From an uncultured Bacteroidia bacterium (GTDB lineage: Bacteria; Bacteroidota; Bacteroidia; NS11-12g; UBA9320): a DNA stretch of 64,000 nt. Location of the stretch: the NCBI GenBank assembly GCA_943787465.1, contig CALSMN010000001.1:1-64000 (forward strand), in the 5' to 3' direction. Below the pieces are notes generated by a model. That model did no database searches. It had not been told where the DNA came from and worked only from the letters and a program-made list of their open reading frames with translations. Below, piece after piece: positions 29,986 through 32,344 of the stretch; position 1 is the first letter of the stretch, and each line of letters opens with the position of its first letter. Both the position numbers and the translations under genes were made by a program.

Positions 29986-30972
29986 TCAACAAAACCAAAA
30001 ATAATCTTTGTTGCTAACTAACGTAGTATCGTCCAATACACGACTTATTTCTTCCTGGTCCGTCGGAGATGAAATAGCAAGAATTAATTGATACGGTGTT
30101 AATGGAATACTACTCCTAGGTTGAATAATGATGTCAAAAATATTAACTCCGTACTTTATGGGATTATCCGTAATCCAATTGAACTTTATTTTTTTTTTGA
30201 TTAACGCTTTTGCCACTTTCTTTCCTTTTTTACCAGCTCCCCAAACCAATAGGGGTTTTGTATCATTTCGATCAATGGATAAAAAATGATGCACTTTTAA
30301 ATCCATATAATTGACAGGGAAATACGTGGAATTTATTCTAGACGTTCGTAAATTACTGTCACGCCAATGATGAATGACTTGGGGGATTGATTTCACCAAA
30401 ATACCAGATTTATACATTCTAAAAGCCAAATCATAATCTTCGGGTAAACGAGAAGACAAAAACCCACCTATACGCTCAAAATGAGTTCTGTGGATGAGCC
30501 AAGCCGAAGAAGGAATAGGGCATTCTTTATATATATCCTTCCATAAGTCACCGGATACCATTAATTGATTAATCCATGCACTATATTTTTGATATCCATC
30601 CCCCAAATCAAAGTCATCAGAAAAATAATCGACCATACCCGTCACTATACAATTATCGTCCATTACACCTACCATCCTTTCTAATTTGTCGTAAGGCATA
30701 ACATCATCAGCATCCATTCTGTGAATATAATCTCCACAACTCTGCAAATACCCTGTTTGAAGAGCTGCCACAATCCCTTCTCCTTTGGAAAATAGATGCT
30801 GGATATTGGAATAGCAGCTGGCATAATTTTCGAGTATTTTATCCGATCCATCTGTACATCCGTCGTTCACCATAATTAATTCCCAATTCGTATAACTTTG
30901 AGTGATAATTGAATCCAGACATGGAATAAGATATTTCCCTGGATTTTTAACTGGCATAATGATCGATATCAT
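29986..30972 (-). CDS. Family 2 glycosyltransferase
   Basis: A 328-residue inverting glycosyltransferase, likely working on surface polysaccharide. It starts with the GT-A strand ISIIMPVKN. The metal-binding MDADD motif is near residue 90 and the catalytic-loop GGFLSSRLPEDYDLAFRM segment near 170. The C-terminal ~80 residues have a Rossmann-like glycine motif (VWGAGKKGKKVA), an add-on seen in some Bacteroidota GT2 enzymes. The start at 30972 is preferred: the longer frame to 31086 adds 38 residues that do not look like the family and run antisense through the structured RNA at 31009-31200. The acceptor and donor are unknown. Confidence 0.88.
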   Translation of the reverse strand: MISIIMPVKNPGKYLIPCLDSIITQSYTNWELIMVNDGCTDGSDKILENYASCYSNIQHLFSKGEGIVAALQTGYLQSCGDYIHRMDADDVMPYDKLERMVGVMDDNCIVTGMVDYFSDDFDLGDGYQKYSAWINQLMVSGDLWKDIYKECPIPSSAWLIHRTHFERIGGFLSSRLPEDYDLAFRMYKSGILVKSIPQVIHHWRDSNLRTSRINSTYFPVNYMDLKVHHFLSIDRNDTKPLLVWGAGKKGKKVAKALIKKKIKFNWITDNPIKYGVNIFDIIIQPRSSIPLTPYQLILAISSPTDQEEISRVLDDTTLVSNKDYFWFC

Positions 30973-30996
30973 ATTCTTACTATGCCACAATTGTAT

Positions 30997-31004
30997 TAAT
31001 TTTG
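30997..31004 (+). promoter_or_regulatory. -7 box TAATTTTG for the 6S-like RNA
   Basis: Perfect TAnnTTTG on the plus strand ending 4 bases before the first base of the RNA's terminal stem, exactly where a start of transcription would be expected. No clean -33 TTG is seen. Confidence 0.6.
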
Positions 31005-31008
31005 TAGT

Positions 31009-31200
31009 TAAGGACTGGTCATAATTGAAAAATTTACGCTGATTATTTTTACGACCTTCACCAAAGCATATAAGAGCAGGCCTCAAATCCAGACTTGTCG
31101 GTAAAGACCTTATCTAATGATAGGGAAACGTTGGAAGTTCGTGATGCTTAGGTGGTCAAATCCTGTTTTTTTGAAATTTTTCAAAAATCCCAGTCCTTAT
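31009..31200 (+). ncRNA. ssrS: Structured RNA, probable 6S RNA (6S-Flavo type)
   Basis: About 190 nt, rod-shaped. The terminal stem TAAGGACTGG (31009-31018) pairs perfectly with CCAGTCCTTA (31190-31199). After a small loop, TTGAAAAATTT (31025-31035) pairs perfectly with AAATTTTTCAA (31174-31184). A central bubble follows (17 nt at 31036-31052 facing 16 nt at 31158-31173). The upper stem pairs CACC-A-AAGCAT (31059-31069) with ATGCTT-A-GGTG (31144-31154). Apical pairing is TCCAG/TTGGA, with a terminal hairpin at 31108-31124. This is the layout of 6S RNA, which binds housekeeping RNA polymerase by mimicking an open promoter; the bubble strand even contains TATTTTTA, close to the -7 box. The alternative is an unrelated structured sRNA. 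The strand is chosen from the -7 box. Confidence 0.68.
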
Positions 31201-31201
31201 T

Positions 31202-32344
31202 TTAAGCGATTACACCACTCCCTATTAAAACATCATGAGCATACCACGCTGCAAACTGCCCTTTAGCAACTGCCTTTTGTGGTTTATTAAACTTAATAAC
31301 TAAACCCCCATCTATTTTAATCAATTGGGCACTAAATAATGACTGACGATATCGTATTCGTAGTTGATAGGTTCTTTCTTCGCTTATTTTCATAACATCC
31401 ATTGGTTTTATCCAATGGATGTTATCTTCTGCAATAAATAACCCTAACCTTAATAATCCCGGATGATCATCTCCCTCCCCCACATAAATTGTATTGGTTT
31501 TCGTATTGGTTTGAATGATAAATAATGGATTAATCTGGCCACCAATATTTAGTCCTTTTCTCTGACCAATGGTGTAAAAATGCGCTCCTTGATGTTCTCC
31601 AATTTTATGACCATCCGATTCGGTGTATGCGTGTTCCTGAACTGGTGTTAATGTGTTCTTATACCCATTCCAATTTTGTGGTATTTTTATTACGTTTCCT
31701 TTTTTTTCTTTTAATCGTTGTTTTAAAAAATCCGGTAATTTAACCTTTCCGATAAAACAAAGACCTTGAGAGTCTTTTTTTTCTGCCGTAATCAATCCTT
31801 GCTCCGTAGCAATTTTACGTACTTCACTTTTTTTTAAATCTCCTAACGGAAAAAGAGCTCTAGCTAATTGCTGTTGATTAATTTGACATAAAAAATAACT
31901 TTGATCTTTGTTGTCGTCTAAGCCAGCTAGAAGCTCAAAACTATCATCTTTCGGTCTTTTTCTACAATAGTGACCAGTGGCAACATATTCTGCACCTAGT
32001 AATTCTGCATGTTTTAAAAAAGTATCAAATTTAATTTCACGATTACATAAAATATCAGGGTTAGGCGTTCGACCATTTTCATATTCAGCAAACATATAGG
32101 CCACTATTCGTTCATAATATTCCTTGCTCAAGTCTATCGTTTGAAAAGGAATGCCCAGTTTATCGGCTACAAGCAAAGCGTCTTTACTATCCTCCTCCCA
32201 TGGACATTCGTCACTGATGGTGACATCCGTGTCGTGCCAATTTTTCATAAAAACACCGATGACTTCATGACCTTGTTTTACAAGAAGGTGTGCAGCTACA
32301 GAGGAATCTACACCTCCTGATAATCCTACTACTACTTTTGCCAT
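31202..32344 (-). CDS. mnmA: tRNA-specific 2-thiouridylase MnmA
   Basis: Adds sulfur to U34 of tRNA-Lys, -Glu and -Gln for accurate decoding. The PP-loop [12 protein letters not shown] is at residues 8-19. Catalytic cysteines lie in the [12 protein letters not shown] segment (about 100) and the [11 protein letters not shown] segment (about 195). The C-terminal beta-barrel contains [10 protein letters not shown]. At 380 residues the length is normal. Its 3' end abuts the structured RNA on the other strand. Confidence 0.96.

Follow-up and report, generated by a model that had tools for sequence, protein, structure and literature searches.

The window, the whole stretch of 64,000 nt that was analysed, is part of contig CALSMN010000001.1 from an uncultured Bacteroidia bacterium, and all positions given are window positions. 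An RNA gene of the plus strand lies here between a glycosyltransferase gene and mnmA (Table 1). The glycosyltransferase ORF as called spans 29986–31086 on the minus strand, starts at a TTG, and runs antisense through part of the RNA. Homologues of the protein align from residue 39, M(ISIIMPV), at position 30972 and, hence, short of the RNA promoter. The N-terminus overlapping the RNA is therefore spurious, as an earlier note on this DNA had assumed when it placed the RNA antisense to it.

Table 1. Features of the RNA locus and its neighbouring genes, in window positions
Feature	Position	Strand	Remarks
Glycosyltransferase gene	29986..30972	-	Corrected start near 30972; lies divergently to the RNA
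-7 promoter box TAATTTTG	30997..31004	+	Bacteroidota sigma-A type TAnnTTTG; ends 4 nt before P1
RNA gene	31009..31203	+	About 195 nt; predicted to start at about 31009 and to end within the T-run near 31203
P1 closing stem, 5' strand	31009..31018	+	TAAGGACTGG; 10 bp, perfect pairing with CCAGTCCTTA
P2 stem, 5' strand	31025..31035	+	TTGAAAAATTT; A/T rich, 11 bp, perfect pairing with AAATTTTTCAA
Central bubble, 5' strand	31036..31052	+	17 nt; (C)AACACU in most relatives at the P2 edge
P3 stem	31053..31056	+	GACC with GGTC at 31154-31157; shuts the bubble on the apical side
P4/P5 apical-arm stems	31060..31069	+	ACC 31060-31062 with GGT 31151-31153; AAGCAT 31064-31069 with ATGCTT 31144-31149
P6/P7 conserved apical element	31074..31082	+	GAGC.AGG.CC; class-wide form AANCAGGCC
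Apical hairpin	31108..31125	+	Sequence and length vary; most homologues form pairs here
Partner of the P6/P7 apical element	31130..31140	+	GTTGGAAGTTC; class-wide form ACGTTGGAAG
Central bubble, 3' strand	31158..31173	+	16 nt; most relatives have AAATCCT
Expected site of a -10-like element	31158..31173	+	3' bubble strand, by analogy with characterised 6S RNAs
Alternative 3'-bubble hairpin	31168..31187	+	8 bp; competes with P2
P2 stem, 3' strand	31174..31184	+	AAATTTTTCAA
P1 closing stem, 3' strand	31190..31199	+	CCAGTCCTTA; followed by TTTT at 31200-31203
mnmA	31202..32344	-	Convergent with the RNA; meets the RNA terminator at its stop codon (31202-31204)

The predicted RNA features a rod of approximately 200 nt with a closing stem, a central bubble, and an apical stem, as is characteristic of 6S RNA. 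The earlier note had described a long interrupted rod at 31009–31200, and every element that it named is found in place. The plus-strand fold has a free energy of −51.5 kcal/mol (z −3.74), which is not equalled by any of 200 shuffles. The minus strand of the same region also folds well (z −3.10), and the strand is thus not settled by folding alone. It is settled by the paired cells of the class-level homologue alignment, in which 176 G-U stand against 33 A-C combinations—an excess that identifies the RNA with the plus strand. The apical part, when folded alone, is not better than chance; the evidence for the apical arm is therefore covariation.

The consensus −7 box that had been proposed four bases ahead of the first stem is present as TAATTTTG. 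Ahead of the closing stem, 31 of the 55 homologues have an exact TAnnTTTG versus approximately one expected from shuffles, and mostly at the same distance from the stem. In Flavobacterium, sigma-A has TAnnTTTG as its −7 consensus (PMC9723704). At the other end, P1 together with TTTT is also predicted to be an intrinsic terminator, and a T-run after P1 occurs in nearly all homologues. The conserved −7 box and the T-run after the closing stem thus mark the plus-strand RNA, at the level of sequence, as a free-standing transcription unit with its own promoter and terminator, as is expected of a 6S RNA, a gene that normally has one or two copies per genome. In several other families of the class, a box of the form (AC)GTTCTT(TA) recurs approximately 30 to 50 nt upstream of the RNA (eight loci, among them L020, L021, and L083) and replaces a clear TAnnTTTG box there. 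This box, which we take to resemble a boxA-type element of rRNA leaders, suggests another promoter or leader arrangement in those families.

The structure is conserved by compensatory change. At the order level (41 homologues, 39-pair structure), 92.9% of the cells are paired versus 77% in shuffles, changes on both sides occur in 30 of the 39 pairs, and the covariation score is 0.487 versus 0.195 in shuffles; 0 of 500 shuffles reach any of five measures, and sliding the partner columns by one destroys the covariation signal. At the class level (55 homologues), double changes extend to 36 of the 39 pairs, with 0 of 500 shuffles as high. Both alignments were fitted to a covariance model. A genus alignment built by MAFFT only, with no model fitting, leads to the same verdict on a smaller scale (compensatory changes in 16 of 44 pairs). 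The search for covarying pairs in relatives, which the earlier note had proposed as a check, thus yields strong signals in fitted and unfitted alignments alike. When 38 divergent sequences are aligned without guidance, RNAalifold recovers only P3, P6, and P7, with covariation; P1 and P2 require an alignment that takes structure into account, since they are separated by a spacer of varying length.

Individual stems carry this signal throughout the rod. All 10 pairs of P1 have changed on both sides across the class. P3 is paired in 99 to 100% of the cells, with double changes in three of its four pairs in the order and in all four in the class, and P6 is paired in 96 to 99%, with double changes in four of four pairs. 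In the apical hairpin, the four counted pairs have all changed on both sides, and approximately 90% of the cells are paired. Indels among relatives fall in the apical loops, beside the covarying stems. The bubble measures 17 to 20 nt on the 5' strand by 16 to 20 nt on the 3' strand in each of the 55 homologues, while its sequence varies.

At the DNA level, 17 of 97 relatives have the RNA; 16 of these belong to the genus, with the genome itself counted among them, and one belongs to a different genus within the family. A covariance model built from these 17 homologues (R1) matches the window at 31006–31206 with 223 bits, and a refined model of order members only (R2) matches the same span with 159 bits. 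R1 finds matches in 46 of 108 genomes of the order, with one strong match in nearly every positive genome; R2 finds them in 45 of 107 genomes of the order, 33 of 247 of the class, and 7 of 198 of a phylum-wide draw. As judged by these matches, homologues occur throughout the family and in much of the class, almost always one per genome. The first-look filter of R1 and R2 scores few candidates per genome, and absences are therefore weak evidence; many genomes of family f2 are without a match under this filter. Neither model matches G025 (family f1, genus g8), a genome from the same family as the window that is 99% complete at 1.7 Mb; this may be a real loss or a very divergent copy. Two strong copies of 134 and 120 bits are present in G173 of family f40, at C3:61116–61309 (L073) and C7:46665–46859, and are possibly paralogues like 6S-1 and 6S-2 of B. 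subtilis. Most of the genera examined within the family retain the divergent linkage of glycosyltransferase and RNA (seven loci in addition to those of genus g1), which could act as an annotation anchor. The linkage to mnmA is present in genus g1 and in three further genomes (G027, G023, and G022); in other genera and families, the RNA is located away from mnmA.

Rfam 15 gives no match at 31009–31199. The model of 6S-Flavo RNA (RF01685) does not detect the window copy up to an E value of 10, let alone at its gathering score, and genome-wide it finds one chance-level site (E 6.3) on another contig. The general 6S model (RF00013) finds nothing in the genome at E ≤ 10 and recovers the E. coli and B. 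subtilis controls. To our knowledge, RF00013 is not expected to reach the 6S RNAs of Bacteroidota, which have their own model. A true 6S RNA elsewhere in the genome would, according to the earlier note, speak against the window RNA being one; no convincing one was found with either model. RNase P RNA, tmRNA, and a small SRP RNA are each located on other contigs of the same genome, and the possibility that the window RNA is another of these housekeeping RNAs was rejected for this reason.

The connection to 6S-Flavo is made at loci of other families. The class was searched with RF01685 in a separate step, and R2 was built from order members only. The two models coincide in seven genomes in total, all of other families. 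In G233, G169, and G150, they find the same place on the same strand. R2 also scores the RF01685 loci of G160 and G195 (L020 and L021) with 42 and 40 bits over the same span, with E values below 1e-6, and, more weakly, those of G117 and G108 (L022, 23.6 bits, E 0.0013; L024, 18.6 bits, E 0.013). Aligned to these bridge loci, RF01685 places ACUCAACACU, CA.GCC...GGA, and CCAAA.CUUGU at corresponding positions, and the alignments of both models are in register: CAACACU marks the edge of P2 and bubble, CA.GCC...GGA the apical element, and CCAAAnCUUGU the 3' strand of the bubble. Because both models land on the same loci with their landmarks in register, homology of the window RNA to 6S-Flavo is well supported by sequence comparison. 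The window copy lies below any threshold with RF01685 and RF00013, and its membership thus rests on a chain of intermediates, through which the homology is traced. The search with the 6S-Flavo and 6S models that the earlier note had recommended accordingly fails at the window copy and succeeds at the loci of other families, where matches coincide with R2. A weak match to Acido-Lenti-1 RNA (RF01687; 30.7 bits at a cut-off of 37, E 0.0011) was seen at L083:628–673 on the minus strand, near the 6S locus of another family.

6S-Flavo RNA is Rfam family RF01685 (Weinberg et al. 2010; PMC2864571). It shares with the window RNA the architecture and its positions, with (C)AACACU at the P2 edge, the bubble, the CA.GCC...GGA apical element, a 3' bubble strand of the form CCAAAnCUUGU/CCAAAUCCU, and a closing stem with terminator. 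In contrast to it, the window copy is undetected by RF01685, has a longer apical arm with an extra variable hairpin, an A/T-rich P2 (TTGAAAAATTT) where 6S-Flavo has the AAACTCAAC type, and a differing upstream region whose TAnnTTTG box lies near the stem. Canonical 6S RNA (RF00013; E. coli ssrS and B. subtilis 6S-1) likewise features a rod of approximately 200 nt with a closing stem, a bubble of approximately 18 nt, an interrupted apical arm, and a possible 3'-bubble hairpin competing with P2; however, the window RNA has no sequence-level match to RF00013 and carries a conserved apical sequence motif. Ms1 RNA of Actinobacteria is, by its description, comparable as a 6S-like rod that was missed by standard models and found via synteny or iterative search, but binds core polymerase and not holoenzyme (PMC9130861).

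The gene, its strand, its structure, its conservation, and its homology to 6S-Flavo are established in this analysis. What the RNA does is a matter of interpretation, and very probably it acts as a divergent 6S RNA of the 6S-Flavo type, mimicking an open promoter, sequestering sigma-A polymerase, and being released by pRNA synthesis. This agrees with the 6S assignment of the earlier note, which gains support from covariation, from the lack of another convincing 6S RNA in the genome, and from the 6S-Flavo loci of other families that are matched by the models. A stand-alone structured regulatory sRNA outside the 6S class, in which the apical motif binds mRNAs or a protein and the rod with its bubble is incidental, would be in line with the missing Rfam match at the locus itself and with apical sequences, CAGGCC and ACGTTGGAAG, that are better conserved than the bubble. 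It would leave unexplained the constant length of a bubble whose sequence varies and a genome without other convincing 6S RNA; moreover, the copies in other families coincide with 6S-Flavo, whose model holds the same apical element. Such an sRNA is hence considered improbable.

The position of the closing stem at the mnmA stop, flanked by A and T runs that could terminate both ways, would fit a mere terminator or long inverted repeat between mnmA and the glycosyltransferase gene, or a cis-acting leader of either. However, neither a covarying apical arm nor a constant bubble is needed in a terminator, the RNA occurs with its own promoter away from mnmA in other genera and families, and the G-U pairs fix it on the plus strand, antisense to both neighbours; this explanation is very hard to maintain. 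A structure that arises as a by-product of coding for an N-terminal extension of the glycosyltransferase has in its favour that the ORF is open through the region from the TTG, but homologous proteins begin beyond the RNA promoter, stems of the RNA covary, and its apical loops carry indels, so that the probability of this explanation is close to nil.

For the 6S reading of the RNA, we infer expression, polymerase binding, pRNA synthesis, and physiology as follows. The RNA would be transcribed from its own TAnnTTTG promoter, be ended by the closing stem and U-run, and bind sigma-A RNA polymerase, by homology, as a mimic of the open promoter. The apical arm would take the place of upstream promoter DNA, the bubble of 18 nt that of the melted region, and P2 that of the DNA downstream. 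When nutrients are short, polymerase would be held back by the RNA; upon resupply, it would copy the 5' bubble strand into a short product RNA, for example, one starting with AGCGUAAAUUUUUCAA..., with the exact start being uncertain and the start region presumed at the P2 edge of the 5' bubble strand. The 5' strand of P2 would form the 5' part of the pRNA template and be unwound during pRNA synthesis, whereupon the 3' bubble strand and the 3' strand of P2 could form a hairpin and the enzyme be released. Such an alternative hairpin is predicted at 31168–31187 with −4.2 kcal/mol (z −2.5), and comparable 3'-bubble hairpins are found in most homologues (mean of −3.1 versus −0.7 kcal/mol for shuffled sequences). 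In characterised 6S RNAs, P2 is unwound by pRNA synthesis, which in E. coli is followed by formation of a 9-bp hairpin from the 3' bubble strand and the 3' strand of P2 (PMC8876501). pRNAs have been reported for the Bacteroides 6S RNA (PMC7366714), and F. psychrophilum has a detected 6S RNA (PMC9723704).

Where 6S RNA has been characterised, its apical arm holds a −35-like region, and a −10-like region lies in the 3' strand of the bubble (PMC8876501). Among the 55 homologues, no conserved TAnnTTTG or −7-like sequence was identified in the 3' bubble. The earlier note had read TATTTTTA in the bubble as a −7 mimic; this sequence sits on the 5' strand, which would be the template side for pRNA, and same-genus relatives have GATTACATTTCC there. 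It was rejected as evidence for promoter mimicry because of the wrong strand and the lack of conservation. The apical motifs CAGGCC...GGAAG exceed the sequence conservation usual for 6S RNA and might have an added role. The 6S RNAs of this class could tentatively be seen as a subclass in which the near-invariant apical element (AANCAGGCC/ACGTTGGAAG, including a variable hairpin and an internal loop) provides a novel polymerase or protein contact, although we regard this as rather doubtful. Such a contact would be unlike E. coli and B. subtilis 6S RNA and would match the unusual sigma-A promoters of Bacteroidota (TTG/TAnnTTTG).

6S RNA regulates transcription globally by acting as a decoy promoter on which RNA polymerase is parked. 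It is as such a known kind of RNA; new here is an unannotated 6S RNA in a lineage where it is missed by the Rfam models. Wehner et al. in 2014 reportedly surveyed 6S RNA in bacteria, Bacteroidetes included, and may already list related RNAs. With current Rfam models, genomes of this type appear to be without 6S RNA. The new alignment and models tie these RNAs to 6S-Flavo and would close this annotation gap. In addition, they offer a testable picture of how an RNA may mimic the unusual promoters of Bacteroidota, with the conserved apical element as a concrete target for mutation.
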